Shown here: piece by piece, positions 8,095-46,669 of the stretch
How positions within the stretch are numbered: position 1 is the stretch's first letter
How the letters are laid out: every line of letters starts with the position of its first letter
Position numbers and translations under genes: made by a program
The notes under the pieces: model-generated
What the model was told of the DNA's origin: nothing
Database searches by the model: none
What the model saw: only the letters and a program-made list of their open reading frames with translations
Origin: Antedon mediterranea
Lineage: Eukaryota > Echinodermata > Crinoidea > Comatulida > Antedonidae
Assembly: GCF_964355755.1 (NCBI RefSeq)
Contig: NC_092675.1
Coordinates: forward strand, 16,443,312 to 16,507,311
Length of the DNA: 64,000 nt
Direction of reading: 5' to 3'

Positions 8095-9054
8095 ATGACA
8101 CGAAGTGCAAGTAGAGTAGCAGAAGTTGAAGATTTTCATGACGACATTGCAATATTGTCGAATTCGAATAATCAGAGGCAAGCTAATGTTGCAAATAAGT
8201 TTGAGATGGAACGTGGAAGAAGACGTGTTTCTAAGATAGAACACGAACGAGTGGATCGTATTCGAGACCTTGAAAGAAGAGAGTCAGAAGTGCGTAAGAA
8301 CTTTCAAATGTTACAAGATCAAAAACTGCACACTTGTAGTAAACTAAAGAAAATATCTTTAAGTTTAGATGAATTAGAAGATCGATCATCTTCTACATAT
8401 CTTACTGTATCTAACGATACTCAAGACACGGTTAGTTCATGTCTTGACTTACGTGCCAGAAGTGTTTCTCCGAGAATAACTAGGACTAGGCCTACTTCTC
8501 CAAAAATGCGATTAACGAGTAGACCACAATCGACGGAGCGTAAACAAAGATCACCTAAAATTTCATCGACATCATCTACTGAAAACTTGCTTCAACGACG
8601 ACAGGTAAAAGCTAAAGATTCATTTTACTGTGTAACAACTGAGCATAAGAGAATAAATACAATAAAAAAGACATTATTGTCATCATCCCAATTTGCTGAA
8701 TTACGTCCTGCACATTTTCGGTCTAAAAGTACACCTTCAATCAACATGAATAACAATATGAAACCTACAGCAATTAACTCGGAACGTAGTAAAATGAGGT
8801 TCAGAAATCTGGTAAACAAACAAATACACACCGATGAAAATCGTACGCGTAAGGTACTAAAGTGTTTCGAAAACTCAAAATCTTCGAAGAAGCCTGAGGA
8901 AAAGGACCCACCCATGCTGCTACCACCTATTTACCAGCAATCTGCAACAAAACTAGTAAAAAGAGACTTTAAGAAAGCCCCAGACATTATCATTACAGAC
9001 ACTGATTGGGAAAATCTACGGAACTGTCGGTATGTTAGGCGCGATACATTATAG
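8095..9054 (+). CDS. Intronless gene A, uncharacterised basic protein with C-terminal CRYVR signature
   Basis: A single uninterrupted frame of 319 codons, starting at ATG 8095 with stops upstream, and ending in TAG. I do not recognise a characterised family. Residues about 36-90 are highly charged and predicted helical (MERGRRRVSKIEHERVDRIR onward), followed by a long serine/arginine/lysine-rich disordered middle. The last 45 residues contain LLPPIYQQ and end with WENLRNCRYVRRDTL. The same layout occurs in the next two plus-strand genes (12,628 and 15,164), so the three are interpreted as diverged paralogues. No signal peptide or membrane segment is visible. A TATATA lies about 120 nt upstream and an AATAAA at 9687-9692. 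It is probably a real single-exon gene, because the shared ends would not survive in chance open frames. Function unknown. Confidence 0.75.
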   Translation: MTRSASRVAEVEDFHDDIAILSNSNNQRQANVANKFEMERGRRRVSKIEHERVDRIRDLERRESEVRKNFQMLQDQKLHTCSKLKKISLSLDELEDRSSSTYLTVSNDTQDTVSSCLDLRARSVSPRITRTRPTSPKMRLTSRPQSTERKQRSPKISSTSSTENLLQRRQVKAKDSFYCVTTEHKRINTIKKTLLSSSQFAELRPAHFRSKSTPSINMNNNMKPTAINSERSKMRFRNLVNKQIHTDENRTRKVLKCFENSKSSKKPEEKDPPMLLPPIYQQSATKLVKRDFKKAPDIIITDTDWENLRNCRYVRRDTL

Positions 9055-10394
9055 GGTGTCATTTGTACACATATGGTTTTCCATGCGATTATTTTCTATT
9101 CATCTGTATGTTATTATGTCTAAATTTGCAGAATCTTCATGTTAATTATTTTCTAATTATGAAACACTTTCAGATAAAATCAATAAGTTGTAATGGTTTA
9201 TAATTTTTAACATCTGCCAGTGTTTTAATGTAACTAAATAGAAACACCTTTTTAATGTACATAATAGTATATTATAGCAATATTTTTTATTATAGGATGA
9301 ACCCAGATACTTCTTTCGGATAACATTTAAAACTACTGTATTAACTTATAAAAATGTTTAAAAATGTATAATAACATTTATTGCAATGGAGTCACTTAAA
9401 TAATACTTTACAATCATTAAACTTGGTATCTATCATGTTGTCACTATAATCTATTTGTTTTGTAGATTTTTATTTTGATATTTTTGTTTTATTTTTGCTA
9501 TTTGAAATTTAAAAAACATTTTTTTTAATATCCCTGAATATTTATCTATCTATTGCTGAATATAAAAGAGAAATGTTTTAAAATATGCAAATGTATATAA
9601 ATAATGTTGCCAAAGTGTAGTGTGATTTTGATATAATTGTTTATCCCAATGATTAATTTCTGATAATATATTATGATTTGTACATAAATAAAGAGTTCAC
9701 ATATACTATGCATTGTCTTGTATTATTGATTTCATATGCATTGGTTACAGCATATGGCGCAACAAAATAGATATTTTGTTGCTCCATGATTACAGTTTGT
9801 GATAATAATTATAATGAAAGCACTCAGAAACTGAGTGAAGTACTTGGCAAAATATATCCACTGATTGGGAGCATGTTGAAAGATAGATTTTTTTTGCTTT
9901 ATGTATTAGCTTTACATGGTTTATAATTTGTTTAAATAATTTTTATTACAAACTCAACCGGCATTGCAATAATGACCTTTCTAAACTCAAGATTGACCAG
10001 AATAATGGTCGAGGAGTGTTTTGAAGCTGTGCCGATTTGCGGCGCCTCTGCCTTAACCAATGTAGTAAGCTTGACCTCTCAACCAGTCGACTAATATTTT
10101 GGTCCATGTCAAAGAATGCTATTTGATATATCGATGGAAGATAAGCTTTTGTGACATGACCAATATGTCAATTTTCCTGAAAATCAACAGGCATGTTCTG
10201 AAAGCGTACAGAATGAAATAAAACGTGACTAAAAATAGTCTCACAATACATACATACAAAGTAAATACTATACTTGGCAAAATTCTTTTTGCCAAGTAAT
10301 AATGAATGTGACGTCATATAAGTATGTACAAGTAGATTATTTAAAAAAAAAAACAATTGTTAAAAGAAGTTATATTGTCCGGTTTCCTTGTGTT
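9055..10394. other. 3' UTR of gene A and intergenic DNA
   Basis: Very AT-rich sequence after the stop of gene A. The polyadenylation hexamer AATAAA at 9687-9692 would give a 3' UTR of about 650 nt. A short hairpin lies at 10274-10297 (CTTGGCAAAA / TTTTGCCAAG, with mismatches). No further coding frame is supported. Confidence 0.5.
9687..9692 (+). promoter_or_regulatory. Candidate polyadenylation signal of gene A
   Basis: Canonical AATAAA about 630 nt after the stop codon. AATAAA-like words are common in this AT-rich DNA, so the position is only a candidate. Confidence 0.35.
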
Positions 10395-10400
10395 GTCTCT

Positions 10401-10431
<31 letters not shown>

Positions 10432-10449
10432 CAAGCCCACCCAGGGACG
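10395..10449 (+). pseudogene. tRNA-Asn pseudogene with internal deletion
   Basis: The 5' half (acceptor strand GTCTCTG, D arm GGCGCAATCGGTTAGCGC, anticodon-stem start TTCGGCTGTT) and the 3' end (CAAGCCCACCCAGGGACG) match the conserved eukaryotic tRNA-Asn sequence. The two parts are joined directly: about 20 nt are missing, removing part of the anticodon loop, the variable loop and most of the T arm including the full B box. Acceptor strands GTCTCTG (10395-10401) and CAGGGAC (10442-10448) can still pair with one G-T. It cannot make a functional tRNA. Confidence 0.8.
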
Positions 10450-10915
10450 CCTGTTTTGTTTGTTATCATAATTTTTAAACATTACAGTGGCTTCATTAAT
10501 TCTGAAAAACACAAGAATTGTTTTTTCGTTGAATCGGTTTAACTCCTTCGTATAGTTCATACCGTTTCATATCTTAAAGCATGTGGAAAAAAACCGCGCC
10601 GTTTAATAATAAAAATATTTATCTCGGAACTTCACTTTTGTAACAGTTGAAGGTGCGTCCAACAACAATATATAATAAATGAAAGCACAAAATAGAAAAA
10701 AACATAGGTAATCTTACTTAATCTACATACGGTAACATGTAATAAACTCATTCATTCTCCTCCCTCCCCTTCTCCAAATATAACAAGTACAACATGTAAT
10801 AGTACTTGAAATATTGATGGTTTTTCTCTCGACTTTATAGGCTGAATGCGGAGACTATTGAGAAACTACAAAAAGGCCTATATAAAACCAGTAGGCTTAC
10901 TACCCGAATAACTAA

Positions 10916-11547
10916 GTACAACACGTTGGTATAAATATATAACAGTTTTGATCGATACATTTTTGTGTTTAATTAAGCCGTCTATAACAATTCAATTGAA
11001 CACGAAAACATCCACACGGTAAATTCTGTCTTGCCTAATTTAAATATTCAATCAATTTTTGTTGTCTATATTTGGCAAGGGTCATTGTAGAATGACCCAT
11101 GTTCTGGGATCGTGTCCTGTTTCGTCAATACGATCTCATCGTTTTGTGAAACCACAGCGTACGATACGACGTTGTAATACAATGAATCTGATAGTTGGAG
11201 TTGTTTTAACCATTTACAAAATAGTAATATTTTCTTGTATTCGACAAAGAATTTAATTACTTTATATTATTATAAGCCACGCAAAAATTAGCCAATTACT
11301 GTTTTCATCACCTGAATAAAGAATCCGTTATATTTATTATAGAGGGCTCAATTTCATCATTGCATATTGACTTGCAGCAACTTACAAGCCCATTTCAGTG
11401 TGTACTGAAATATCACCAATGCGTAGTTTTAACTCATTAAAAATCCCACAATGTGTTATAAAGCCCTGTCTAAACTTTATGTGAAAACAATCCAAGAAAT
11501 ATTTAGGAAGTAAGTGCAATTCATCATCAAACTATTGGAACTGACAT
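10916..11547. repeat. Tandem segmental duplication, copy 1 (about 632 bp)
   Basis: Starts with GTACAACACGTTGGTATAAA and ends with AACTATTGGAACTGACAT. The adjacent segment 11548-12164 repeats nearly the whole sequence in the same order with few substitutions and small indels (about 617 bp). It lies between genes A and B. There is no coding capacity beyond a short chance frame. Confidence 0.9.
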
Positions 11548-12164
11548 GTACAACACGTTGGTATAATATATAACAGTTTTGATCGATACATTTTTGTGTT
11601 TAATTAAGCCGTCTATAACAATTCAATTGAACACGAAAACATCCACACGGTAAATTCTGTCTTGCCTAATTTAAATATTCAATCAATTTTTGTTGTCTAT
11701 ATTTGGCAAGGGTCATTGTAGAATGACCTATGTTCTGGGATCGTGTCCTGTTTTGTCAATACGATCTCATCGTTTTGTGAAACCACCGCGTACGATGTTT
11801 TAGACGACTTTGTAATACAATGAATCTGATAGTTGGAGTTGTTTTAACCATTTACAAAATAGACAAGGAATTTAATTACTTTATATTATTATAAGCCACG
11901 CAAAAATTAGCCAATTACTGTTGTCATCATCTGAAAGAATCCGTTATATTTATTATAGAGGGCTCAATTTCATCATTGCATATTGACTTGCAGCAACTTA
12001 CAAGCCCATTTCAGTGTGTACTGAAATATCACCAATGCGTAGTTTTAACTCATTAAAAATCCCACAATGTGTTATAAAGCTCTGTCTAAACTTTATGTGA
12101 AAACAATCCAAGAAATATTTAGGAAGTAAGTGCAATTCATCATCAAACTATTTGAACTGACATT
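11548..12164. repeat. Tandem segmental duplication, copy 2 (about 617 bp)
   Basis: Direct repeat of the preceding 632 bp, with small deletions relative to copy 1 (for example a short stretch missing near 11,863 and a TAA-type loss near 11,933). It ends about 460 nt before the likely start codon of gene B, so any regulatory sequence inside would be duplicated next to that gene. Confidence 0.9.
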
Positions 12165-12627
12165 TACAAAGTACTAGATTAAGTGTTGAATAATAGGCTA
12201 CTCCGTTTATATATTGAAACTAGTAATAATAAAAGAATCGTCATGGTTTTCTAAACAACAACAACAGAATATTATACTTTTTCTTTTGTTATTATTATAC
12301 GGATTTAAGAATTTAATAAATAGTATCGTTTCTATGGATATCAAAGTAAACACGTATTATCATGTTTTATACTAAATTCTGATTCTAAAAGAAACTATAA
12401 TAAAAGTACATATGGTACCTATACACATTGGATTAGCATAGATTTTTCTTTTTTCTCTTGATCTACACGTTCCACATTCAACAAAGCCTACTAAAGATTC
12501 TGGAGAAGCTTCATGTATGTGTTAACTGTGGAGACGTATTCAACTGTCAACAACCTTGTTTAATTATCAGCTATACACCTACATTGCTTTTTGGACATTT
12601 TGGAGAATATTTCTAAATATTATAAGG

Positions 12628-14070
12628 ATGTCTACCGAAAAACAAGCAATCAATTTGATGACCAAAGGAAAAGGGCGTTTACTTCAGGTAATAAACACAC
12701 AAGAGCGACAGCATCATAAAAGATATGTCCAGTTTCTGGATACAGAAAGGAAGAGATTTAAAGTATCATTTGAAAGAGAACGTAGGGATTACTTTACTAA
12801 GCTTGAACAATATTACCGAAAAATATACTCGAGCGGACGGACTGGAATTGCGGAAGATGGAGAAGACGTGATGGCGGTACACTCTATTGATTTAAAACAC
12901 CGATGGTCCAAACCTGATCAACAATCAATTGATAATGGCAGTAAACTCTTGTTGGTGTCTTCAAATCTATCACCAGCATTAAAAAATGACAAAGAGCCGT
13001 TTAATCAATCAGTGTCCAAACAATTAGTAAATGACAGAGAACTTTCTTCAAAACAAACAAATTTGAACAATAATGAAATATCAGTCGTTTCTAGTAATGC
13101 ATCTGTCGTTAACTCTACTTCAACTAATAATTCATCAACACAAACTGAAAAGGAGACATCGTTTGTTCAACGACCAGATTCTAAGATTAACATATCAACT
13201 TTCCAAAGGTCAAAAGAGCATTATTTTTCTCAACCGGTTTCTGCAATAAGAGATAAAAAGCAGTCTGCTTGTGTGAGTTCTGCTAATACACATAGTAAAG
13301 AACCATCTTTCGTTCAACCACACATAAATAGGTCAGCAATGAGAAATGAGGAAAGCCATAAACTGAGGAAACACAAACTAATTCCCGGTTATAAAAGTAA
13401 AAGCTTTGTTCGATTTAGTGATTCTACACCGACAGAATATGTTGATTCCATAAATTGTAAACTTTCATGTAAAGCACCTATTTTGGGCATAAGGCCTATA
13501 TCATCATCAGACGGAGAGGTACTTAAAAACAATTGTAAGACTACAAGAAAAAGAACTACTTTAAAGCAAATTAGCTTAGGCTCAATTCCTTCCTGTTTGA
13601 AAACATCTACAAAGCTTTGTCGACATAGGACATTACCTGATCATTTCACGGTAAGCAGTGGCCATTATGAGACTATTCCTGAAGAAGAAATGTATGGAGA
13701 ACAATCATCAATGAATGATTCAGAAACACAGAGAGAACAAACCCGTGTCCGCTTACCAGTAGTGGGTGAGCAGAAGCCTATCCACACACCTCAGGAAACA
13801 GTAGGACCCACACCAACGTCGAATTACCGCCAAAAGACAATGTTGTACCATGAAAGCGAATCGATGGAGGAAATTGATGAAGATTTGCTTGATTATTCTG
13901 AATTCTTATTAAATAACTATTACTGTCTTCCACCAATATACAAAAATGTACACGCCGACCAACGCCAGTCTTTCAGTCCACCACCGCCATTCAACACTCC
14001 TGACTCTCTAGCTATGGAATTTAAAACATTGAAAATGTGTAGATATCTTAGAAACTCAAGTCCATTTTGA
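12628..14070 (+). CDS. Intronless gene B, uncharacterised paralogue with C-terminal CRYLR signature
   Basis: The open frame begins upstream at 12556, but I choose the ATG at 12628 (480 aa). The extra 24 residues are hydrophobic and unmatched in the paralogues, whereas the protein from MSTEKQAINL onward aligns with gene C. Residues about 11-70 form a charged helical block (KGKGRLLQVINTQERQ, YVQFLDTERKRF, YFTKLEQYY). The middle is Ser/Thr/Asn-rich and probably disordered. The C-terminus has CLPPIYKN, SFSPPPPF and LKMCRYLRN just before the stop. No transmembrane segment, catalytic motif or known domain is recognised. It lies between genes A and C in the same orientation. Function unknown; the paralogy supports a real gene. 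Confidence 0.75.
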   Translation: MSTEKQAINLMTKGKGRLLQVINTQERQHHKRYVQFLDTERKRFKVSFERERRDYFTKLEQYYRKIYSSGRTGIAEDGEDVMAVHSIDLKHRWSKPDQQSIDNGSKLLLVSSNLSPALKNDKEPFNQSVSKQLVNDRELSSKQTNLNNNEISVVSSNASVVNSTSTNNSSTQTEKETSFVQRPDSKINISTFQRSKEHYFSQPVSAIRDKKQSACVSSANTHSKEPSFVQPHINRSAMRNEESHKLRKHKLIPGYKSKSFVRFSDSTPTEYVDSINCKLSCKAPILGIRPISSSDGEVLKNNCKTTRKRTTLKQISLGSIPSCLKTSTKLCRHRTLPDHFTVSSGHYETIPEEEMYGEQSSMNDSETQREQTRVRLPVVGEQKPIHTPQETVGPTPTSNYRQKTMLYHESESMEEIDEDLLDYSEFLLNNYYCLPPIYKNVHADQRQSFSPPPPFNTPDSLAMEFKTLKMCRYLRNSSPF

Positions 14071-14618
14071 AAGAAGATAGGAAGTAGAAAGAGAAAAATG
14101 TTAACAAAATAGAAGGAAAAGAGAGCAAATGATGAAAGGAAAGGATGACCTCATTGTTTCATCAATAATCTCTTTACACATGGATACATTTCAGAGCGCA
14201 GAGAAAGAGTAGTTTTATAACATTTTCTTTAAAAGCATACAGTTTTTATTTAACTAAATCCATTTTCCAAGGATATAATAAGCCATTTTAACAGGAGAGT
14301 AATGGTTATTTCCGTAATTGTTAAATTTGTATAGCTGCAAAATACTATTATTCCATTTCGTGAGAATGTTTGGAACAACACAAAGATGTCCACACATAAT
14401 ATTGTTATACTCTACTAGTAAAACTGTAAGCTGTCACGCTAGGTTATCAAGAAATTTCTAAAAAATGCATTCTATAGAATTTTTGACAAAGCCCCGATTT
14501 TAAATTATTGTGATCAGACTATATTGTTACTATAGAAAACTCGTTTCCATAGTTATTAGGTACAAACAAGTTTATGACAATCCTTTTACATCATTTTAGT
14601 ACCATTGAGTTTTTGTAG
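14071..14618. other. 3' flank of gene B, no feature recognised
   Basis: AT-rich sequence with a purine-rich start (GAAAGAAGATAGGAAGTAGAAAG). Nothing coding is seen. The nearest strong AATAAA is at 14905-14910, after the minisatellite, so the gene B transcript might run through the array. Confidence 0.4.
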
Positions 14619-14876
14619 GGCTTGTATGGATATTTCACTTTGGTATTAATCAAGCACCAGAGTCTTGTATGGATATTTTACTTTGGTATTAATCAAGCAC
14701 CAGAGTCTTGTATGGATATTTCACTTTGGTATTAATCAAGCACCAGAGTCTTGTATGGATATTTCACTTTGGTATTAATCAAGCACCAGAGTCTTGTATG
14801 GATATTTCACTTTGGTAATCAAGCACCAGAGTCTTGTATGGATATTTCACTTTGGTATTAATCAAGCACCAGAGTC
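14619..14876. repeat. 43-bp minisatellite, six copies
   Basis: Six head-to-tail copies of a unit beginning GTCTTGTATGGATATTTCAC and ending AATCAAGCACCAGA. The copies are nearly identical; one has a 3-bp deletion (GGTAATCAAG) and one a C-to-T change. The high identity implies recent expansion. Confidence 0.92.
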
Positions 14877-14949
14877 GATTCAATTTTCACAACATACAAA
14901 CTCAAATAAACATTTGATTTGATATTTGTTATTTCGGAGTTTTTTTATT

Positions 14950-15105
14950 CATCAGAATTAACATATAGTTGTTTGATTGCATCAGGATGATCCCCAGAAG
15001 TTCCAGCGGTAACTAATGATCTCCTCTTGAGTCTTCTTGAATTTGAATTGGTGGAGGATGATTTTGCTTTCTTGGATTTCACGATTTTGTAATTTTCTAA
15101 CGTAA
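14950..15105 (-). other. Possible minus-strand terminal exon or coding remnant
   Basis: On the minus strand an open frame ends with basic and Ser-rich sequence (KSKKAKSSSTNSNSRRLKRR), then SLVTAGTSGDHPDAIKQLY, and a TAA that overlaps AATAAA. A TTAG acceptor-like site lies at the upstream edge. The frame has no start codon, and no upstream exon was found. It could be the last exon of an antisense gene, a remnant, or chance. Confidence 0.25.
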
Positions 15106-15163
15106 ATACGTTGCACCAAGTACTATGTTGAGATAGATAAAATCATCGTTAACAATCGATACG

Positions 15164-16162
15164 ATGTCTGTTCCTTTTGAACGTTCCGAAAAGAAAGCAT
15201 TGGCGGGGATGGAGAGGAGAAAGGGGCGTACGTTACGTGTTCTAAACACATACGAAAAACAGACATACGCTAAACAAATACAATTCTTGGAAAAAGAAAA
15301 ACAAAGATCTGCAAAAATGATTGATTTAGAATGCAACGGTTACTACGACCATCTCGAACAGCATGTCGCAAAACTTTATCCAAATACGTCCAAGTGTTTA
15401 TTAGAGGAAATTAAATCTCAAAAAGATGACAAAAACATGAATAAAACATTATCGAAACCGACCGATTCACAATTACAGCCTGACGTTGTAGAAAAACAAA
15501 AACGGTTCTCTGATAGACCTACATTGGAAGGAAAGGGAAAAGAAATAGGCATACCATTCCATCGAAGTAAAACGACGTTTGAAACTTGTGATCGTGTTGT
15601 TCCAACCAAGCCGAGTCTCCGACCGCTTACTGATAGCGAATTAAAGGGTAGTAATCAGGTATGGGGACAGAAAAACTTACACATTCCACTCAACCCATCA
15701 AAAGTGAAATTACCAAGCCAGAGAAAAACTCTACTTCTCCGATGTAAAACTACTTTACCGGAAAACCTTAATAGACCTACTAAAAAGAAGTTAAATTCAT
15801 TGAAAACGCATACTGCCAGTAGACCAACAACTAACTATGATGCTAAACGTGTTTCAATCACAGGTAATAACGATAAACCATCTGATGGAATATCGTTGGA
15901 AGATGCTAACTTTACAAGCAGGCATGATGTTCCAGGGGTATGGTCTATAAATGAACACCACCATTCTAAACACGATAGAATTCAAACCATCAAGCCGTAC
16001 ATTCCATCGCATGTTCTTCCGCCTGTGCATTCAAGCGAGTCTCGTCCGTTAGTTGCACGGTCCTGGAGTCCACCACCACGTCAAAAACATTTTGAAAATA
16101 TAGATGATTTTAAGAAACTTAAATTCTGTAGATATTTAAGAAGTAATACATTTTTACACTAA
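15164..16162 (+). CDS. Intronless gene C, uncharacterised paralogue with C-terminal CRYLR signature
   Basis: A single frame of 332 codons from ATG 15164 to TAA. The N-terminal block (residues about 16-72) contains RRKGRTLRVLNTYEKQTYA, IQFLEKEKQRS and YYDHLEQHVAKLYP, matching gene B position for position in its charged and aromatic residues. The middle is basic and low-complexity. The C-terminus has VLPPVHSS, SWSPPPRQ and LKFCRYLRS six residues before the stop. AATAAA at 16180-16185 gives a very short 3' UTR. The lack of introns, the shared ends and the tandem order with genes A and B argue for local duplication of an intronless ancestor. No known domain; role unknown. Confidence 0.78.
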   Translation: MSVPFERSEKKALAGMERRKGRTLRVLNTYEKQTYAKQIQFLEKEKQRSAKMIDLECNGYYDHLEQHVAKLYPNTSKCLLEEIKSQKDDKNMNKTLSKPTDSQLQPDVVEKQKRFSDRPTLEGKGKEIGIPFHRSKTTFETCDRVVPTKPSLRPLTDSELKGSNQVWGQKNLHIPLNPSKVKLPSQRKTLLLRCKTTLPENLNRPTKKKLNSLKTHTASRPTTNYDAKRVSITGNNDKPSDGISLEDANFTSRHDVPGVWSINEHHHSKHDRIQTIKPYIPSHVLPPVHSSESRPLVARSWSPPPRQKHFENIDDFKKLKFCRYLRSNTFLH

Positions 16163-16960: not shown

Positions 16961-17078
16961 GGAACGAGAGGACGGGATGATGATGATGAGGAGGAGGATG
17001 ATGATACAGATGACGATGATGATGATGAAGATTACGATGATGATGCAGATGATGATGATGCAGATGATGATGATGATT

Positions 17079-17121
<43 letters not shown>

Positions 17122-17325
17122 CGAGGGTGATGATAAGGATGACAAGGATGATGAAAAGATGATGAAAAGATGATAAGGAAAAAATCTGGGAACAAGAGGA
17201 TGGGATGGTGATGATGATGAAGATGACGAGGATGATGACGATGATGATGATGAAGATGACGATGATAGTGCAGATGATAATGATGCAGATGATGATGATG
17301 ATGACGAGGATGATGGAAATGTGCA
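16961..17325. repeat. GAT/ATG microsatellite with a higher-order unit
   Basis: Long (GAT)n tract with interruptions. The phrase GGGAACGAGAGGACGGGATG at 16961 recurs as GGGAACAAGAGGATGGGATG near 17187, so the array has a larger period of about 226 bp. All long open frames here (Asp/Met/Ser or His/Ile runs) are artefacts of the repeat. Confidence 0.92.
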
Positions 17326-18911
17326 TGGAAATGTGCAAACATCGCACCAGTCCATAAGAAGCTCAGCAAGACGAACCTATGCAACTATAGACCAATTGCA
17401 CTGACATCTTTGTTCTCTAAGGTGCTCGAGAGTATTGTCACCGATGAACTCCGTCTTCATCTGAACGAATTTGGACTTATGTTTGATGGCCAATATGGTT
17501 TTACTCCAGGAAAATCTTGTTCCTCAGACTTGGCTGAGGCTACAACATCCTGGGTTAAGGCTTTAGATAATGGGGCACCACGGATTGATGTCGTGGCTCT
17601 TGATTACAGTAGGGCATTTGATTCCATCTCGCATGACATTCTGGTGAATAAGCTTTCAAAAACGTATGGTGTTGGCGGTGTATTATTAAAATGGATTAAC
17701 TCTTTCTTATCTGGTCGTAAGCAAAGAGTAATTTTTAATGGTGTCCAATCTGACTGGTGTTTAGTCAAGTCAGGTGTCCTCCAGGGGTCAGTCTTGGGGC
17801 CATTATTGTTCAACATTTACGTGAATGACTTAAATCTTCACTTGGAAAATAAACCGTACCAATATGCTGACGATACATTTATTAGTAAAGCAGTTTATTC
17901 TTATTGTGATTTTATTTCCTTACAGAGAGACATTAACAAAATCTCTGAATGGTCAATTTTAAACAAACTTATTTTAAACCCTACTAAATGTAACATCTTG
18001 TCTATCAATAGAAGGAGAGCTCCATCTTCTAATGACTATGTACTTAACGATCAGGTTATTGCACATGTTAAACATCTGAAAATTCTTTGTGTGTACATAT
18101 CCGATGATTTGTCATGGTCTAAACAAGTCCATGAGGTTGTAAATAAGTGTAATAGAACACTGGGTCTTGTTAGAGCAATTGCTGGTGGTTGTTCTACACC
18201 CGTTCTTTTAAAATTATACCAGTGTCTAGTCCTCCCTCATATACAGTACTGTTGCGAGGTGTGGTACCCTTATCGCATATGTCAAATTCAAATGATTGAG
18301 CAAATCCAGAGACGGGCCACCCGGTTGATTTTACATCAACGTCGTCAGGAACATGTCATATGAGGGGAGACTAGACACTCTTGATATCCCATCCACAATC
18401 GCTATTAGAGATTGTTATACTGTTCTATTTGTTTGCAATGTTTTACTTTATCATCAAAGATCTATTATTTATAATTTACTCATAGTTAATAATCGTCATG
18501 ATACTTTCACTTTCAAGCATCTTCGCTCCAGTAATGATATGTCAAAATTTTGCATCCCGACTAGAACTTGGAATTCCATACCCAATGAGATTCGCGATAT
18601 TTTTGTTAATGGTTCTTTTATTAATTTCAAATTATCTCTAAAGCTATATTTTAAATGTCGGAGAGAAACTTTTTAAATTTTTAAATGAAATGATATGTCT
18701 ACTATATTAGTATATATTCTTGTTATTTGTTATTTATGTGTTGGAGAGACACACCTTACCGGTGACAGCGTTTTGTTTAATGCTTTTGTCTTTCCTCGGC
18801 CTCGTGTCTTGTTTTTCATATATATATATATATATATATTTCTATGTTTTTTTTTGTTGTAATTATTATTTTATGTTTATTGCCGAAATGAATAAAATAA
18901 AATAAATAAAA
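17326..18911 (+). mobile_element. 5'-truncated non-LTR (LINE) retrotransposon with frameshift
   Basis: The reverse transcriptase domain is readable from a WKCANIAPVHKK-like start (17326), through NYRPIALTSL, the palm motif VVALDYSRAFDSISHDIL, LQGSVLGPLLFNIYVNDL and the catalytic YADDT, to a C-terminal RRATRL region. The first frame stops at 18363. The continuing C-terminal region (MSYEGRLDTLDI to about 18676) lies in another frame, so there has been a single indel near 18345. There is no endonuclease domain: the 5' end is missing. The 3' end is AATGAATAAAATAAAATAAATAAA at 18888-18911. The family is CR1/Jockey-like by general resemblance. It is a dead copy inserted in a GAT array, which resumes immediately after it. 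Confidence 0.9.
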
Positions 18912-27900: not shown

Positions 27901-30900
27901 TCTGCAACGTAGAATAGGAGGATCCCATATGTATGTATGCATTTATCACCTGATTTTTCTAACTTTTGTAACTTTTTTTGTAGGGTCTTGGTGGCCTAAC
28001 AAGTCTAACCTTTTTCGATGCTTCCTGCAACCGTCTTGAGTACCTACCAGCAGATATACAAAACTGGGAATCACTGACAGATCTTCACCTTTCAAAGAAT
28101 TATTTACAAGAACTTCCAGAAAACCTAGGTATGGTTATTGTCTTATCTTAAAAACCCTTTTATTACCAGTTTTCTAATAGGACCATATCAACATCTCTTT
28201 AGTGAGTGAGTGGCCAAGCGGTTAAGACAGTGGAACCGTAATTACGTAGCCATAACATCGGCAGGGGTTCGAGGCTCACTCACTCCATGGTTCTGGTGGT
28301 AAAACGAGTCTTCTCGGATAAGGATTATACACCGTAGGTCCAGTGTACACATCTAGCTCGTGTGCACTTTAAAGAATCTAGTACATCTTTCGAGACTAGT
28401 AGGGGGTTACCCCGATGTATTAGTACATCACAGCCACTGATCACCAACTGGGCCCTCTGGGAGACCAGTCTTTGACTGAAAAGGTTACCCAGTATAAATA
28501 TATATTTCTATCAATTTATTAAATGCTGCAAGCACACTGTCAATTATTGTTTTGTTGCTTTTAAACAGTAAGCTATACTTGACATACAGTATGATTTCTT
28601 TCGGTAATGTAACAAAGTCTATGTTCTACTGTTCTGTATAAATATAAATATGTACATAGTTGTTTCATCATGTTTTAATATAAAAACTCAAGATGGTTAT
28701 CTACAGAGCCTCTGTTTTACGTACCCTGAATTTATGTTTCCTGGATATTACATACGTTTAAAATAACCGATGACGTCATCATTTTCTTACATTGAGGGCG
28801 CAATTTAACAACAAACACAAAGCCATGCCATGGCTGTGTGAGACAAGCTACACACGTGCATTCCCCCTACAGCAGCGACTGTTTTTATTGATAGAAAATA
28901 TAACACTTTATTTAAACATCGCACAGCCTGTATATACTGTACTTTTCTAGATAGTCTAGGCAAGGCCTAGCTAGTGACCACTGCATGCTGTACAGTAAAG
29001 TAGGCAAACACGGCAGCCTTTTTAGCTACGATCTACGTATTTGGGGGTCAATTTAAGGCCAACCTGGATTTCACGAATCCCATGTTTTATGTATGCCTTT
29101 TGGTCCCGTACCATACGTAAAATGAAGGTTCAACTGTAAAGGCAAAAGTTAAGTTAAGCAGATAACTGAAATAAATACCAAACACCTACCGATCAATCAA
29201 TACTAATAAGATTGTATTTATTGTATTTTTTAAAGATTTTTTAAGCGTTTAGGAAACTGTGTATATTTTATTATTTGATATTATTTTTTATAGGTAAACT
29301 GAGTCGGCTTAAAACATTAAAAGTTGATGAGAATGAACTTGCCTTTCTTCCATTCTCAATCGGTGGTTTAGTATCTATTGAGGAGCTCATTCTAAGCTGC
29401 AATGACTTAGAAGAATTACCACCAAGTATAGGCCTTCTTCGCCAGCTTTCACATCTGAATGTTGACGAGAATCTTCTAGCCTACATTCCACCAGAGGTAA
29501 TTGTAAACCCTTGATAAATTTCCAAGGAGTGTTCACATGTTTTCACTTACAGCTTGTGATTCTGTATAGTAAAATTGTGTTAAAAAAATTGTTTACAAAA
29601 GGCCAGTTCAACATTTTGGTGCAAAATTTTGGTATTGTTTCTTCACCAGATTTTTTTACCAGCACAACTCAAGATCATAACTATGTGGCAGCCTAGCTAG
29701 ACCTAGCCATACACTACATTTGCATTATGTAAAGTCGTATGTTTGTAAAATGTATAAACAGAAGAGAATGAAAATATTGCAAGATTTGCATTTTTTGCCA
29801 TCAATTTCTTGACGCGACCCATAGATTTTATTTCCCATGTCCTAATGAGCCACTTTTCCATAGATGTCCAATTTTACTTACATTGTTATCAAGTTTAAAG
29901 TTTTGTCTACACTATCAAACTTTATGTGACAAAAAAATGTCATGTGCCCATATTTGGACATGATGATGTTATATCCATATTTGGGTATATCACTACCATA
30001 TTTGGGCACATATTTTTTGTCAAACTAATTTAATAGACAGAGACAGAGCTTTAGATTCTATTAATCTTATCCAACAGCTTGGTAGCTGTAATCATATAAC
30101 AGTGTTATCATTACGTTCAAATCGTTTAAAGACCGTTCCTGATGAGCTAGGCCGTTTATCCCGTATGACTGTACTTAACCTAAGTGATAACCGGTTACTC
30201 TACTTACCGTTCAGTTTCACTAAACTTAAATCTATTCAAGCTTTGTGGTTGGCAGAAAATCAGGTAATTTGTTTTCAATTTTATAATAATAATAATAATA
30301 AGAGAGTGTTTGTACATTTGTTCCTTATACAAATTTGTTCTATTGCATACATCCATACACATGGGGTATTAAAATGACCATCTAGGAAGATTTTTGGATG
30401 CTAGTCAAGTCGCCCCATCGCAAAGTCGCCCCATACAAAGTCGCCCCTTACACAGTCGCCCCATCGCAAAGTCGCCCCAAAACAAAGTCGCCCCGACACA
30501 GTCGCCCCATCGCAAAGTCGACCCATCGCAAAGTCGCCCCAACGCAAAGTCGCCCCATCGCAAAGTCGCCCCATCACAAAGTCGCCCTATCGCAAAGTCG
30601 CCCAAAACGTTAAAAAATAGTTTACAAGTGCGTAAAATGTCGCAATGATACACAAAATAACACGGAACGTGTAGGCATAAAAGGGGAAGCCCCGCCATGT
30701 AGTCTCAGGTCACACGATCGGCACGCACCCCCATCATCAGAGTGGAAACCCCGACTAATCACTCAGCGGTCGCACTAACGTGCTATAGCTTACCAGCAGA
30801 GGGAAACCCCGTAATTACTCCGCCGTTGTCGCACTACAACTCACCATTCTGAAGATGGGGAAACCCCGCCGGAGTTTTACGATGATATCAGTCGCGTTCG

Positions 30901-33900
30901 AAATCGGTCGCGTTTAATTTTGGTCGCGATAAAATGATGTTATACGATCTAGATTATTTTTACTTTGGTCGATGAATATTTATTGTTATTATTAGGCCTA
31001 TATTAATAATTGATTTTTGTTTTTATTTTACAGGTCAGTAGGATGGGAAAGATGTGTGCCTTAAAAAAATGACAATTTGTAAACATAGTTTAAGATTATA
31101 GTATTATCCAGCATAATGTCATTTGACAGTACATAATTATTTAAATGTGAAATATTTTATAGGAAACGTAGACTGCGTCTGTGTCTTTTATTTTATATGC
31201 AACAAATTACGTAAAACAATTTATTTATAAACATTCAGTTTACTATTATTATACATAGTATTACAATGGACATTGATTGTAAGCCTGGAAAGGCAATCCC
31301 ATCATTATATCAATTATAAAATTGCATCATATCACCACTATATGTCGTAAATGACGTGCGTGTGTGTATTCGTCGTACGTATTATTCCGTGCCTCTTCAC
31401 TGTCTTGTTTAATTTAAAATTAAATATACACCCGATATGAGGATATTTATTAGGCATGTTAATTAGAATGTTCTAAAACCAAAAGGGTTGAGAAGAATTT
31501 CTTCAGTAAAATGATCATTGTGCTGTTGAATAAAAGGCGACTCGCTATCTGAAACATTCTCTGAAACCAATCGGAGCTGCGCCTTCTGGTATCTGTTTCC
31601 TCACAGCTGCTACGTCTTTCTGCTGACCGTCGGGGATTCCCCTTTTTAAAAAACACGCACACGATACTGTACGATGGTTTTTCCATGGTCAAAATGTAGC
31701 GTTTTAAATTTTACTAAAATACCTGCATGTAAAACAATCATATCGGCGATGAAATCCTTTTTTTTTCCTTCATTTTGAAAAGTCATTATAAAAGTAAGAC
31801 ACATAACTTGTCAATAAATGCAAAATGATCAATAAGTAGCCTATAACACTCATTGTCTTACAACACTGTTTTACAACTCATTGTCTTACAAATCTATACG
31901 AAGGCCTACACATTTATACATTTATTATATTATCCTAAAAAATGAGCTGGTATCCAGGCGTAGGTTGAAGAAAGATTCGTAATTGTGGCTCTGGTAACTA
32001 ATTTAACATTTTCGAAACTATAAATCAGGGATAATCTTTTTAGAACTTTCAAACAAGGGACTATTTTTTTAATGATTTTTAAAAAGCACTTCACTCCATT
32101 AAAACCTGTAAAATAAAAATTTTATGTATATAATAAGATAAAAATTGTAATGTAGGCCTATACGACATTTAGCGCGACCAAAGTAACAAACGCAATCGAT
32201 ATCAAACGCAACCGATATGAAACAGCGTACTACTACGGCGGCGCTTCATAATCATACCGAAATAAAACCGTGGGCGACTTTGCGATGGGGCGACTTTGCG
32301 ATGGGGCGACTCTGCGTTGGGGCGACTTTGCGCTGGGGCGACTTTGTAATTGGGCGACTTTGCGATGGGGCGACTGTGCCTGGGCGACTTTGTTTTGGGG
32401 CGACTTTGCGATGGGGCGACTTTGTATTGGGCGACTTTGTATGGGGCGACTTTGCGATGGGGCGACTTGACTGGATCCCCTACTACCTTATTCTGCCTCC
32501 CAATAAATTTTTTTCTACCTCCCAATTATGTATGCATACCTGTGCGCAATTCAGCCCAGTTGCTAGTTTCAGGTTATTCCCCTGTATTTTTATATTTATT
32601 TATAATTATTTGTGTACTTTCAGTCTAAACCTTTGTTACAACTGCAATCAGACTTCATACCAGAAAGAGGCTACAAGGTGTTGACATGCTTCTTGTTTCC
32701 ACAGCAACCAAAGGCTCCAGAAGAAGGTAGTATATTCATTGTTTATCTCTCTTCTCTGTGGACTCATTGTGCATATACCATATACCCTCATGTATAATCC
32801 CACTTCGGGTCTAATTTCATCCCCTATTTTATGTCTGATTTCACAAACAGGCATGTCCCCGCATATAGTCCCATTGTTAACTTTTGGTCTGGACGATGTA
32901 GGCCTCTAAATAGCCAGTTCATATGAGTTTGTACAAGAAATGCTTACCAATCCCACACCCCCAAGGCCAACTTATGGGTCCTAATGGGGTGGGATTATAT
33001 CAGAGGATATACGGTAAGTACTAATAAGTAAGCCATCTACTGAATTTATTATTATTTCTTTTGCGAGAAAGGTTAAGATTTCCTATAATTTGAATATAAT
33101 TACAGTATGATAGGTAAAAAGTTTCTTAACACAGCCTGTTTTTTTAAATTTTTATTTTATTTTGGTTTTTTTTGTTCAATATTTAATATTGTTTCTTTTT
33201 ACGTTGTTTATTAGTTATACATTGGAGTACGTACAAAGGTAATAAACATGAAATGTAAAGTTAGTTTATGTTTCACTATATGCATGCAATTATTAGTGTT
33301 GTAATACTTTATCAACACTGGCCTAGCACAGAAAATTTTGCTTAACAAGGTCTCTTTCAGGTCTGGTATGACAACACTTGACCAAATTAGTTTAACCATG
33401 GTTTAACTTCTGTAGTGCAGCCTGTCTTGGCAACATTCATATCAAGCTTCAATACAATACAGGCAACCCCTCTCCTGCATGGTTCTACTAGAATTTACCT
33501 TTACATGTCTTTTTACCATCCCTGGCTTAGCTTTTCTTTAAACAAATATTCTTACAAACATGTCATCTATCTCGGATTGACTAAATATATTTTCAATAAA
33601 TAATTTTTATAATAATTTTAACGCTGCTATACAAGTAAAATATTTCTAGTTCTATACATAGTTTTACTTTACCTATGCATATATTCAATTTTCAAAAAAT
33701 TGTGGATGGTCTCCTTGACTACTGTTGAAAATCGGCCGAGAGTGATAGGGATAAGATTAGTAAAAGGAGGTGTTGCTTACCTTTCTGTTTGGTCTAGCCT
33801 CCTTTGTTGCACTCATAATATTTAATCTCTTGAGACACACAGTGGAGTGCTTATCGCAATCTAATCCGATTCATGGTGTCTGTGTTTGTTAGTCGGTGAC

Positions 33901-36900
33901 ATGTAAAGCAGCTATCTATCGCTACCATACAGTAGGATACCTGGTAGTAGTAGTAGCAGCGTTAAGTGTTTTGTATGCTCATGTGCTGAATCCAAATCCA
34001 AGAAGAGAGCGCTGCTCTCTCCGGTAGCCTTGTACATGACCTTGGGTCACGCGATGAGCTGAACCATTATCAGGAGGGGTATTTCACTACACTACATTCC
34101 CACTGCAAGAAATATATATATATTAAATAAATTTGCAGGCATAGGGAAAGTCTAAATTATGTAGTGATATACTGAACCTAATTAATTTATTATAAACTGT
34201 TATAATTTCTGACCAGCATCTTTTTATAACCTATTTAATTTCAGAAATAAGATTTAAAGAATTATGCTTGGTTCCCACTAGAGAGACAACACAAGGATGT
34301 AACGCAACATAAGTTAGTTGACCAATCACAAGCGATGAAGTATTGGTCAACACACTTGCATTACGTCCTAGTGAGAACCAAGCTTTAGAATGTATTCTGT
34401 TTATGACCCTAGTAAATTACACAAAATATCATCATCATATTGTCTGCAGTTTTGTCATCATATTAGTTCTTCGTCGTCATAATGATAATTGGCTTGTGTT
34501 TTACCAGTCATTGTTTGTTTAGTCTAGTTTATCCTCAACATTATGGTTATCATCAATATCACTAACCATCAACACAAACACAGTTGCAGTGAACAAATAG
34601 ATCATATTCATTTTCTTTTGAGTTCATATGTTTTTACAGTATATAGCAGGTAGATGATTTGTAGTGTTAAAATTAAATACACTGGTAATCGTATATTTTT
34701 ACATTAGATTACATACTTTACATCATAGGTAGTTGTTAGGCTTGTTTTAATCAAAAGTATAGCTGAGCTTCAAAGATGCTTGCTTAGCAATCCCAGTCTC
34801 CTAGGTTCAAATCCCAGAATTTTTCTCCTGAAAAATGGCACCCCATCCTTAGCTGTGTATGAGTAGTTTTGTTTCCAATCTTGTTAATTGGCCATTGCTG
34901 TTGCCTGTACTGTATGTAATTATTACAGAGATAGTATTCAGAGGCTGAGTCACATCACAGTTAACATGTGACATGCAAGTCAAGTTTGCTTGAGATACGC
35001 AAGACTTGGCATATGCTCACATGATACTGATTATTATATTTTTGTTATGCATTTTACAGATCTTTTTTTTTTACTATATTTAATAATGTTATTGTAATGT
35101 CTGATTTATATACATTTTCCTATCCTTTGCAGTGCTTTATGCTGTATGTGTTTAGAGCTAAGCTGAAGATTTTCCGTGCCATTTACCTCCATTAATATTT
35201 CTCATAATTTTAAAACTATTTACCCAGTATATTTTTGGTATAGATGGATATGTAAAAAGCACATGTTTTTGAAGCAGAACATTTTAATTACTGTATTTTA
35301 TATCTTTTTCCTTTAATTTTTTTCTTTTATATGAATAAGAATAGGTATTTTAAATATATTGTTGTTGAGTTCTGAAAACATACTAAGGTTATTTACAATC
35401 AAAAGCTGTTTCATTAAATGCTAGAAGTGGCACTGTAGCTTGTGGCATGCTTTCCTGCCACAAGGGCATTGGTTCAATTCTGAGCCTATTTACATACCTA
35501 GGATTTGAGTTGTACTAGTGGCATCAACAACTTTTAAGTTTAATGGTTAAGGAGGGAACTGCACACAATAGACATACAGGGAATCAAGCCTCTTTTGACC
35601 TTGATTCTGGTGGTAGAAAAAGTCTTCATGGATAAGGAATTTTAACTGGATATCCAGTGTACACATCTGGCTCATGTTCACTTTAAATAACCTTTCAGAA
35701 GAGTAGGGTATACTAGTCTATTTGAAATTCCTTAATTGAGGATGAATATTATGAAACAAACAAGCTTGTACTATCAATGTTGACAGATCATGGGATATGT
35801 CTCATCTTGTAATGTGTATTGTATGAGATTAATTAACGCTTTGATAATATTTTAATCTATTACTACCACTTTGTATATGGAGAATTAATTAATTAGCTGT
35901 GTTTATTTTGTTTGTTTAGATATATACATGAGTGATGCTGAGAGCTTCCATGCATCCGTCTGGGAACAGAAACGTCTTTCAAGTATGAAAATAGCATTTG
36001 ATGTGGCAGAGGTAGATAGTCAGGTATGTTATGTATGGAAATGATACATTACCCTGCTACAGTACCGCTACACACAATAGGGATCTTTCCAATTGCTAGG
36101 ACCTAGAACCTACATACCGTAAAAACCTCAAGCCCATCTCAAAAAGAAGCCACTTTCTTAGGTTTGCAAAAATAATCAAAAACTTCTTTTCAATATAGTA
36201 TTTCTTTTATTGAACCTTGTAAATAGAATTTCTGTTGACGTATATATGTGAACTTTATTCAATCAATCGTACATTCTTTTGGTATTATAATAGTAACCAT
36301 AATAACGTGTATTTACAGTATGTATCTTTGTACATGACAATAAAGAGTAACTTAAGACTCAACATTTTGCAAGATTGAAAAGCTGGTTAAAACACAAACT
36401 TTAGCATCTTTGTCATATTTTACATTTCATATGTATTTTCATCATTACTGCAATAATCACCATGTAGTGAAAATTTGAGAAAACCTAAATAAATCCAATT
36501 TAACCTCTTTCCAATATAACTTTTGTTTATTTTTTTTTATTTAAGATTCAGGTTAGAAAAAGGTCACCAAACCCATATCCAAAGGAATCTGGGAAAACTC
36601 TGAAGAAATCTGTGCCAAACGGAGACGTGTCCGACTTTGAACGTCCTACTGTAAGATATTATGCATTATGATTGAGTTGTGCCATGATAAGTCTTTGCGA
36701 GGGAGTGGAGTTTATTTTAATAAACAGTACTGGAATTAGACAAGATTTGATCCCTTGACCCTGGAGGGATCAGTAGTTGGAAATCTTAACCACCTAAGCT
36801 ACTACATTTTACTATGTTATGTTCTTAATTTGTTTATTATTTTACTATTATTTAGAGGAGACATAGAAATAGCAACTCTCATCATAAAGACAAGTCTGCT

Positions 36901-39900
36901 GATAGTCCAAGGAATGACAGAGGTTTAGAATTGTTTAGAGCAGACAAAGTAAGCATTTTAATTGTTTATAGTTGAATAAATAATTAAACAAAGGATTACA
37001 CACATTACTTTAATTACACTTCAAATACTGTAAAACCAGAAATTTCCACACACATCCAACTTTCTTGAATTTCATGAGTGAAATTCGTGAAAGTTTATTG
37101 CCGCGAACAATCTTCAGGAAGCATTAATGACGAAAGTCATGCATACGATGGTCAACACGATCTTGTTACTAAAATGCGTTACTGTATTAGTACAGACTAC
37201 ATGCATTTTAACACAAAGGTTGCACCGACGATAGATTGACACGAATTTGTTACAATATTTAATTGTACTTTATTTTTCAAAATGGCCGATGTAACCAATT
37301 CGCAGAAGTTTCATGTCACAAAAGTTTCCGGTTTTATAGTAATTTTAATGTCATGTTTAAATTGAGACGATTTACTAACAATTTCAATCTATTTAAATTG
37401 AGATTATTTATCACCTGTAGAAGAAAAGAAAGCAAGATAAAGAACGATTTGGCCGAGGGTCAATGGGTCATCGACCAGGAGGAGAGAGTGATACAGAATT
37501 TATTGCTATGCAGATGAGAGAAAGCTTAAAAAGAAATTCAATTAAGGTAAGTTAAAGATAAAACATAAAAAGGAGCTTGTATTGCAATGTATCATCAGTA
37601 TTTTGACAATGAGTGGGGTTTTACAGACTTGTAGAAAAGCTAATTTTGCTTTAACAAGTTCTGTCTAAAGCATGGTTCCCACTACAGTAAGTAGCAATGT
37701 ACCATAAAAAAATGCCATTCCAATAGTTGTGTTTTCCTCCACCTGTGTGAAATCGAATATGCTTAGTTGAGTGTCTGTTAGTTGCTGTAGACCTTGACCT
37801 GGTTCGCCCCGTGATTGATTTACTATGTTTTCCAGTGTTGTTTGCACCACTGTTGCGTCATTGGTTCACACTTGTGATTACGCAATAAAGCACTTTGCGT
37901 GGATACATCGTTGCGTCCAAGTTGGAACCACAGTTTACAGACAACGTTTTTTTAGTCAAAATTTATCAATTGGTGTTGTGCTTTGTCAACACAAACTTTA
38001 TTTGATCCTAATGACTGTATATACAGATATACTCAACATAATCAAATTATGCACTAATGTACTCAATAAACTAATCACTAGTTTTTTAAACTTATTTTTT
38101 TTTTTTTGAATTTTTTAGAATAAAGGTGGACGTGGCTATTCAAGTGATACCGACAGTTTTCTGAAAAGTCCACCATCGCATTTAGACCAACAAAAGTTTA
38201 AAGTAAAAGCTGAGAAACAATTGATAACCGAGGTTGATGAAGAAGTTGCAATTATTAATGCAAGTACAGATAAAACAGATAATCAAAGTGATAAACTAAT
38301 AAGCAAATCGCCTGAAAAAACAGTCACCGTGCGTGTTAGTACTAACACACCTGTAAGAACTCCACAAGGATTTGGGGAACTACCCACTTCAAAGTCATTC
38401 CCTGTTGATGAACAGGTCAGACCACAGAGGGGTCTTCGGAGGTCAGGGTACAGTACCGACCCTGAATATGACCCTAGATTCTATCGGAAAAAAATGGATT
38501 ATAAAATGAAATCTAAAGACGATCACCATCTTTCTAAACCTAAGAATTATATGCAACGGCGAGATCACCATCGAATGAATTGGCAACATTTATCAAGAGA
38601 GAACGAAATCTGGATTGATAAAGCTCCTGGAGCAGGAACAGGGGGAAATAGTAAAAGTCAATCGGAGGCATGGAACGGTAGTGTTGGGCATGTAAATTCT
38701 GTATCAAATTGCAATCAAAACAGTAGTACAAATTATTTAGCTGAATACAGACCGCCTAGTAGGCATGGTAATGTACCTTATTCATCATCGCAGTCAACTT
38801 TGAGTAATTCAAGGCCACATATACCAAGTTACGAGGATGTAATGCGGAGTCGAGATGCTTTAGCGTATCAGAAGAGCCCAACAAAGGGCGAACAAGACCA
38901 CATTGAACCGTCGAATAATGGTGCTAGTCAAAATGTTCACAATATGCCATCTACAACCTCACAACTTTCACCTAACAAACATTTAAATCAATCTTTAACT
39001 AATCATGAAAGTTTAGAGCAAAAAACTCCTACCTCTTTGGAACCCCATAGGAGAGGAAAAGCTGACGGGCGATTGGGTAATGAAAATGGGCATAAAGAGG
39101 GTCACTATGAGCGTCCACATGACCAAAGACCAAGAAACCAGACCACTCCAATGGTAAGAACATTGATTTAGTCTGATACTGATATTTTATAATATTTATT
39201 CTACTATGGATAATTGTTGTATCACGTACAATCACTGTAGTTGCTTGTTTATCAATTTATTTTATATTTTTTCCATTCAGGAGACACAAACATATTTATG
39301 GTGTGATATTAAAGACACTTTATCTGCAATTGTTTTTTTTTTCGTTTTGTACAAATAATGCATATATATTATTTTTTAAACATGGTCATTCCTTGTCTTA
39401 AATGTATATTCTAAGGTTAATTATGATAAAAGCGAAGTGTCTTTAATTTAATTTTTATTTATTGTCATTTATCAACATTTTTTAGAAAAAAAACCCCTGA
39501 AACGTGTTGCAAGAGTTGGTTGGTTAAAACCAATCCGATGAACCAGTCCCAATTCTGGACTGGGTATCAAATTCTAAAATGTTGATAATTGAGATTTTTT
39601 TAAATGTCATTTTGTGTTAATTGGTGATGGTCTGTTTAATGCACATATCACAGAAACCTAGATGTCAAATGGGGGTAAAAGCTAGACAAAACCAGATACG
39701 TATGCACATGTTACAAGCAAGGTTGACCAACAGCATGGTTAGTTGTTATCTTATGTTCTACGTATGATCACTATTTTTCCTTTTATCATTAATTGCATGC
39801 CAATTTTGAATTAATACTTTTAAATTACTCATACGTTTTCACTTGCATATTACAAGTGAGTGAGTGACCGAGTGGTTAAGACAGTGGAACTGTAATTACA

Positions 39901-46224: not shown

Positions 46225-46400
46225 GGGCCTAGGCCTAGGCCTAACTAGGCCTACTAACTATATAGGTCTAGGTAGGCTAGATAGAGTAGAGGTCTAACCG
46301 CTAGGCTAGGCCTCTAGGCCTACCCACCACTAGGTAGGCCTAGGCCTATAGCCTAGTAGTAGGCTAGCCTAGCTACCCAAATCAACCCGTACCTATGCCA
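46225..46400. repeat. TAGGCCTA-type low-complexity cluster
   Basis: A dense mix of TAGGCCTA, CTAGGCC and GGCTAG words in both orientations, unlike the surrounding AT-rich sequence. It is not a regular tandem array. Confidence 0.8.
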
Positions 46401-46660
46401 ACTCGTACCCAATTTGGCTAACCCGTAGTACCCAACCAATCGCGCCCTCAATATATAAGGCCCAGATTGGTAACGACCAGCAGTGTCGCCTTTATGATGA
46501 GTACTACTACTAGTAGGCCTAGCTAGTACATTATATTTATTACGTGACTACGTTCTTTATAATTAATTTTAAAATGTATGGATGTTAACTTAATGGACTT
46601 TTTCTCATTACAAACTAAGAAATATGAAATACAGCAACATTTTTTAGAAAGAAGAATAAT

Positions 46661-46669
46661 TATTTTTAA
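46661..46669. other. Target-site duplication, left copy (TATTTTTAA)
   Basis: Exact 9-bp match to 47453-47461, abutting the inverted termini of the element 46670-47452. Confidence 0.85.

Follow-up and report, generated by a model that had tools for sequence, protein, structure and literature searches.

The 64,000-nucleotide stretch of the Antedon mediterranea genome analyzed here (contig NC_092675.1, positions 16,443,312 to 16,507,311; hereafter, the window) carries three single-exon genes on the same strand, which a reading made from the DNA letters alone (the sequence-only reading) had described as a tandem family with a common C-terminal tail. These genes, referred to below as genes 1, 2 and 3, are the following:

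8095..9054, + strand: gene 1 (P0001), single-exon coding sequence, 319 residues, C-terminal end DWENLRNCRYVRRDTL
12628..14070, + strand: gene 2 (P0002), single-exon coding sequence, 480 residues, C-terminal end EFKTLKMCRYLRNSSPF
15164..16162, + strand: gene 3 (P0003), single-exon coding sequence, 332 residues, C-terminal end DFKKLKFCRYLRSNTFLH

Each gene runs from ATG to stop in a single open frame, with an in-frame stop codon 5′ of every ATG. From stop to stop, the frames of genes 1, 2 and 3 span 323, 514 and 341 codons, respectively. By comparison, 40 sequences of 64 kb simulated from the dinucleotide make-up of the window gave a longest open frame of 228 codons and a mean maximum of 133. 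The composition of the three frames is also skewed across codon positions, with G+C fractions of 0.42-0.45 at the first position (GC1) and 0.28-0.31 at the third (GC3). Given lengths above the chance maximum, the existence of three same-strand, single-exon genes is borne out, and on these sequence properties we take them to be real protein genes. That they are instead chance or decayed frames encoding no functional protein was already disfavored, and is extremely improbable in view of the lengths, the GC1/GC3 skew, and the synonymous variation beneath the conserved tail peptide described below.

The tails of the three proteins follow one layout, namely LPP[IV], 25-27 variable residues, and then the motif [FW]xxLxxCRY[LV]R, from whose end to the stop there are 4, 5 and 6 residues in genes 1, 2 and 3, respectively:

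8917..9039, + strand: conserved tail of gene 1, LLPPI ... DWENLRNCRYVR
13927..14052, + strand: conserved tail of gene 2, LPPI ... EFKTLKMCRYLR
16016..16141, + strand: conserved tail of gene 3, LPPV ... DFKKLKFCRYLR

Similarity was assessed by shuffling one partner of each pair 2000 times and counting the shuffles that reach the real score. For the tails, this count was 1 for genes 1 and 2, 0 for genes 1 and 3, and 0 for genes 2 and 3. These sequence comparisons show that the tails are homologous in every pair, and the tail originally proposed, i.e., LPP(I/V) and then L-x-x-C-R-Y-(L/V)-R near the stop, stands confirmed. Across five genes (genes 1-3 and the two genes on contig 4 described below), RY[LV]R is constant and synonymous codons differ, the first Arg being encoded by CGG, AGA or CGT and the Leu by CTT, TTA or TTG; synonymous changes around a constant peptide fit with selection on the peptide. 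The suggestion that the tail is a docking site holds up as a possibility, the docking step itself being one that we infer.

At the opposite end, the first reading had proposed a charged helical block, or head, shared by all three proteins. In sequence, the shared head is confirmed for genes 2 and 3 only (35% over 75 residues; 0 of 2000 shuffles), since the head of gene 1 was equaled by 53 of 2000 shuffles against gene 2 and by 306 against gene 3. AlphaFold was run with the three sequences, the individual models being those of genes 1 and 3. The resulting features are:

12634..12858, + strand: N-terminal block of gene 2 common with gene 3, 35% over 75 residues; 0 of 2000 shuffles
15185..15409, + strand: N-terminal block of gene 3 common with gene 2, from the shuffle test; predicted helices at residues 6-71 and 77-95
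8107..8388, + strand: predicted N-terminal helix of gene 1, residues 5-98, from AlphaFold
15446..16015, + strand: predicted disordered linker of gene 3, residues 95-284, predicted local distance difference test score (pLDDT) < 50

In gene 1, the helix at residues 5-98 has pLDDT block means of 86-96 for residues 21-80, residues 98-289 are of low confidence, and the whole model has a mean pLDDT of 50.3 and a predicted template modeling score (pTM) of 0.24. In gene 3, the helices at residues 6-71 and 77-95 have block means of 71-80 for residues 31-90, and the whole model has a mean pLDDT of 48.4 and a pTM of 0.23. A front helix is therefore predicted confidently in gene 1 and moderately in gene 3, and the middles of both proteins are predicted to be disordered; where the models are confident, they consist of single helices. 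The middles of the three pairs resemble one another no more than by composition (1211, 102 and 1788 of 2000 shuffles), as had been proposed. Thus, the shared head survives as sequence for genes 2 and 3 and as predicted architecture for genes 1 and 3, and is not shown as sequence for gene 1. The broader picture stands, that of a small family of intronless genes whose products have conserved or structured ends on either side of a disordered middle.

Repetitive DNA is found on both sides of gene 3. Between genes 2 and 3 (14621-14876), a 43-bp unit is arrayed in tandem six times with 96% matches, and this array ends 288 bases 5′ of the gene 3 ATG. At 16976-18360, a long GAT repeat precedes an open frame for reverse transcriptase (PF00078, 99.9 bits) ~1.2 kb 3′ of gene 3.

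A fourth family member on contig 4

The genome (354 Mb, 18 contigs) was searched with the full proteins, the tail of gene 3 and the head of gene 3, and these searches reported only genes 1-3 and two matches of gene 2 at E 4.46, which were taken as chance. The search with the tail of gene 1 reported gene 1 itself, gene 3 (E 3.01) and a segment of contig 4 (745688-745855, minus strand; E 4.87), and missed gene 2. The contig 4 segment belongs to a further gene, which none of the searches with full-length genes, gene 3 tail or gene 3 head had reported:

contig 4:745592-746878 including the stop, minus strand: fourth gene (P0005), open frame of 434 codons, 428 residues from the first ATG

The tail of this protein contains MILPPIHN, i.e., LPPI, and DEDWEDLKKCRYLR; after DWEDLKKCRYLR, 31 residues follow to the end. 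A profile built from the three window tails scores 25.4 bits on it (E 5.4e-10, for one sequence), and its tail was equaled by 0, 4 and 0 of 2000 shuffles against genes 1, 2 and 3, respectively, the first of these counts not being independent because the gene was discovered via the gene 1 tail. The complete pattern, LPP[IV] with [FW]xxLxxCRY[LV]R, occurs in genes 1-3 as well as the fourth gene. The head of the fourth gene shows no clear sequence relation to those of genes 1-3 (45, 21 and 339 of 2000 shuffles). These tail comparisons show that the fourth gene is a member of the family, which thus has four or more members in this genome. This number is a lower bound, as most searches passed over the fourth gene and its membership rests on the follow-up profile and shuffles. 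When the window and the 30 kb upstream of it were scanned with a profile, no additional copy emerged.

This gene bears on several points of the sequence-only reading. Another copy, on a different contig, does carry the same tail. The motif is not tied to the stop, and the 31 residues beyond it imply that a free C-terminus is not required. All three window genes are intronless, as stated; so are two dispersed genes on contig 4, the fourth gene and the gene P0004 described below, and since both are single open frames, intronlessness is no mark of the local array alone.

Relationship to CCDC190

An exon at 51722-51997 (+ strand), ~36 kb from gene 3, matches PF18595 (Nuf2 DHR10-like) with 30.7 bits, above the cut-off of 28.4. 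The exon preceding it (51331-51594, + strand) is NUF2-like by eye only, with no supporting Pfam or Protein Data Bank (PDB) match, and a putative gene with leucine-rich repeats (LRR) and a PDZ domain is located between gene 3 and these NUF2-like exons. Because the helical head and the nearby NUF2-like exon raised suspicion of CCDC190, a little-studied vertebrate gene, the genome was searched with PF15768 (CC190; the CCDC190 / C1orf110 family), whose curated cut-off is 27 bits. At E up to 10 this search, in which one candidate was scored, gave one match, at contig 4:7864386-7864643 (E 0.35, 18.7 bits, model positions 201-270), within the following gene:

contig 4:7863567-7864694: CCDC190-like gene (P0004), single open frame, 376 residues

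P0004 was chosen independently of the RYLR tail, and yet it has one. Against Pfam, its last 103 residues match PF15768 with E 0.0044 and the whole protein with E 0.068; no Pfam family matched its first 106 residues. Residues 289-359 align to model positions 214-270, in an alignment where the letters of the model are not visible, and RYLR lies inside this segment, which holds FHEAKKARYLRWKDPQTINKELSVTEVF (FHEAKKARYLR, i.e., ARYLR). Relative to the tail pattern, Leu and Cys are each replaced by Ala, and LLPN stands in place of LPP[IV].

The tail of the fourth gene resembles that of P0004 (3 of 2000 shuffles), and the likeness continues beyond the motif. The score of P0004 with the three-tail profile was equaled by 73 of 5000 shuffles of P0004 (94 for the best domain), and that with the four-tail profile by 24 of 5000. 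Among 424 distinct open reading frames of at least 60 residues, RY[LVI]R occurs in the last 45 residues of seven, all from the five genes; two of the seven are cut pieces of gene 2, and part of the surveyed DNA had been chosen because it matched. As points in common with CCDC190, the sole PF15768 match in the genome at E up to 10 has the RYLR tail and a single open frame. The name of the CCDC190 family implies a coiled coil in front; long front helices are predicted in genes 1 and 3, the heads of which are not similar to that of P0004. Vertebrate CCDC190 members have a low-complexity middle. From these sequence likenesses we are inclined to conclude that genes 1-3 and the fourth gene are distant, fast-evolving relatives of CCDC190, with P0004 probably being the CCDC190 relative of this genome. 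The earlier statement that no known family is recognizable is right only in part, given a weak link to CCDC190 (PF15768) via P0004; no Pfam cut-off is reached. Other Pfam candidates were chance-like, namely the single whole-protein match of genes 1-3 at E up to 1 (E 0.31) and the matches of separate heads and tails at E up to 10 (best 0.037).

Several results weigh against this kinship. The three scores of P0004 (18.7, 17.5 and 13.6 bits) are all below the PF15768 cut-off of 27. No PF15768 match was obtained for genes 1-3, whether searched whole (E up to 1) or as separate heads and tails (E up to 10), nor for the fourth gene at E up to 10, in searches whose HMMER filters lose most matches above ~0.1. 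When the P0004 protein served as the query against the genome, the other four genes did not turn up. The tails of genes 1, 2 and 3 were equaled by 570, 75 and 72 of 2000 shuffles against the last 85 residues of P0004, and by 427, 44 and 68 against the last 62; hhalign gave the window tails a probability of 2.1% (P 0.023) against the P0004 tail. The heads fare no better, with 533, 618 and 846 of 2000 shuffles for genes 1, 2 and 3, and 104 for the fourth gene, against the P0004 head. P0004 also differs in the KELSVTEVF that follows its RYLR, which is missing from genes 1-3 and weakly visible in the fourth gene.

It is quite conceivable, if not what we expect, that the genes form a family of their own, restricted to their lineage and with no relation to CCDC190, in which case the RYLR of P0004 would be convergent and the proteins would act as two-ended linkers all the same. 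The marginal scores of the window tails against the P0004 tail, the missing PF15768 matches of genes 1-3, the dissimilar heads and the failure of the P0004 search to find the other genes all speak for such a family. Against it, the fourth gene bridges both sets, through its likeness to the P0004 tail, and no further open reading frame of the 424 has RY[LVI]R near its end.

The evidence from linkage is mixed. An excerpt of a horse study lists CCDC190, RGS4, RGS5 and NUF2, with dozens more genes, in one associated region (PMC8532986), and part of a goat study places markers near CCDC190 and RGS5 ~0.36 Mb apart (PMC11218406). In the present genome, the NUF2-like exon ~36 kb from gene 3 speaks for the kinship, and the rest of the arrangement against it: P0004 sits on contig 4 and not next to NUF2, an RGS match shares contig 6 with the window at a distance of ~7 Mb, a second RGS match lies 1.2 Mb from P0004 on contig 4, and the UDPGP matches fall on contigs 10 and 7. 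The neighbors were read mostly by eye, over 30 kb on the upstream side, 10 kb on the downstream side and the 19 kb that surround P0004, with one upstream open reading frame compared with Pfam.

A putative linker with two functional ends

Our overall reading, which is tentative and which we hold with slightly more doubt than belief, is that at least four single-exon, fast-evolving linker proteins form a diverged branch of CCDC190, likely acting in the motile cilium. In this mechanism, the charged N-terminal helix would bind, or dimerize on, one filament or coiled-coil partner, and the disordered middle would be a free tether that sets the reach. The tail, [FW]xx[LA]xx[CA]RY[LV]R, which probably forms a helix in the bound state, would dock on one conserved partner, its RYLR segment clipping onto a second site. 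The docking face would consist of the aromatic residue, Leu and Cys/Ala, at three-residue steps, and then R-Y-[LV]-R. The likely place would be the axoneme or basal body of a motile cilium.

The tail could alternatively be a cell-cycle or signaling motif, such as the cyclin-docking pattern RxL, with the genes acting in division or meiosis. R-Y-L does match RxL in four of the five tails, those of genes 2 and 3 plus both contig 4 genes. Gene 1, however, has R-Y-V, and the conservation is longer than a bare RxL needs, reaching the Leu and the aromatic residue 3 and 6 positions before the Cys, as well as LPP[IV]; we therefore regard this alternative as improbable. Less probable still is that the near-terminal Cys, invariant in genes 1-3 and the fourth gene, is the working part, through lipidation or redox chemistry, and that the remainder is spacing: P0004 has Ala at this position, 31 residues follow the motif in the fourth gene, and the flanking R-Y and R are retained in all five genes. 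The cysteine, which the sequence-only reading suggested might matter, is thus probably not essential, because P0004 has Ala there, provided that its kinship holds.

A ciliary role of the triplet in the window is plausible at best, and we would sooner doubt than assert it, because it needs two inferences, namely the kinship with CCDC190 and a conserved function; docking, partner and place are each conjectural. The ciliary part derives from mammalian gene lists that name CCDC190. In the portion of a nasopharyngeal carcinoma study that names it, CCDC190 is among 142 down-regulated genes, a set rich in axonemal genes (PMC6444505), and an extract of a study of healthy cow endometrium has it up together with CCDC39, CCDC65, CCDC173 and seven CFAP genes (PMC7588428). 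In excerpts of another report, C1orf110 is in the ‘BE over CIS_PC’ set, the network figure of which highlights cilia-formation genes, and is also one of eight genes excluded from that network analysis (PMC2820080). The cow CCDC190 homologue changes around estrus in the endometrium, a cilia link not being drawn in the relevant passage of that source (PMC10977793). Among the papers that a literature search listed for CCDC190, none was devoted to it or gave one of its names in the title or the abstract; searching for the letters of the motif retrieved unrelated words only, and a search on the proposed mechanism found nothing.

Some observations count against the mechanism as well. The predicted tail helices, at residues 313-322 of gene 3 over DFKKLKFC, stopping at the Cys (block means 56 and 44), and at residues 302-309 of gene 1 over DTDWENLR (block mean 54), are of low confidence and lie only ahead of RY[LV]R, leaving the motif itself outside. 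X-box-like sites in the window number 5, versus 7.2 expected, the nearest being ~390 bases 3′ of gene 3. In the part of a Ewing sarcoma study that concerns it, CCDC190 is scored in ‘intracellular vesicles’ (PMC8516792).

By way of analogy, the proteins might work in the manner of ciliary microtubule inner proteins or similar short linkers of the axoneme, a class that is partly disordered and anchored by small motifs. They differ from this class in that no credible relative turned up among solved structures: searches of PDB sequences with genes 1-3, a tail profile, a head profile, P0004 and a five-tail profile gave best E-values of 0.21-2, which are chance-like.

More broadly, and more speculatively, CCDC190 and an expanded intronless branch might form an unrecognized animal superfamily, defined by the docking segment [FW]xx[LA]xx[CA]RY[LV]R, with the rest diverging freely and with one conserved partner for the segment, ciliary or cytoskeletal; we think this possible, though we would not presume it. 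The set is larger than first seen and somewhat unusual, and probably represents a diverged arm of a known but obscure family, as opposed to a new kind. If this reading is right, CCDC190 gains a testable functional core of ~12 residues, whose natural variants (Cys/Ala, terminal/internal, Leu/Val) would help locate its partner. Such a family would be overlooked by ordinary profile searches because only one short segment is kept.

Other features of the window and neighboring DNA

A search of the assembly gave no COX1 match. Beside P0004, the exon at L020:3447-3719 (- strand) is like the ITPA C-terminus by eye. Upstream of the window, a minus-strand gene has an ankyrin-repeat exon at L014:6160-6456 (PF12796, 40.5 bits), and a large inverted repeat has arms of 1172 nt, 97% alike, at L013:5652-6823 and 8582-9753.

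Within the window, LRR and PDZ exons, putatively of one multi-exon gene, span 29245-42959 (+ strand). Among the LRR exons, two arrays of the same 16-bp unit lie in opposite orientation at 30403-30604 and 32271-32472 (arms of 202 nt, 93%, 1666 nt apart), and a coding tandem repeat with a 13-residue unit (39 bp x 9.8) is located at 41495-41877, within the LRR/PDZ exon stretch. Segments of the type ERDIRLTQEREEE, at 61999-63676 (- strand) and L021:1255-3975 (- strand), are like the C-termini of MISP/AKAP2 by eye; AKAP2_C gives 12.6 bits, below the cut-off of 27, and an open frame of 907 codons is present there too. Lastly, the palindrome TAGGCCTA occurs 23 times in the window, versus 0.6 expected, with 9 of its occurrences clustered within 1 kb at 46230-47211.

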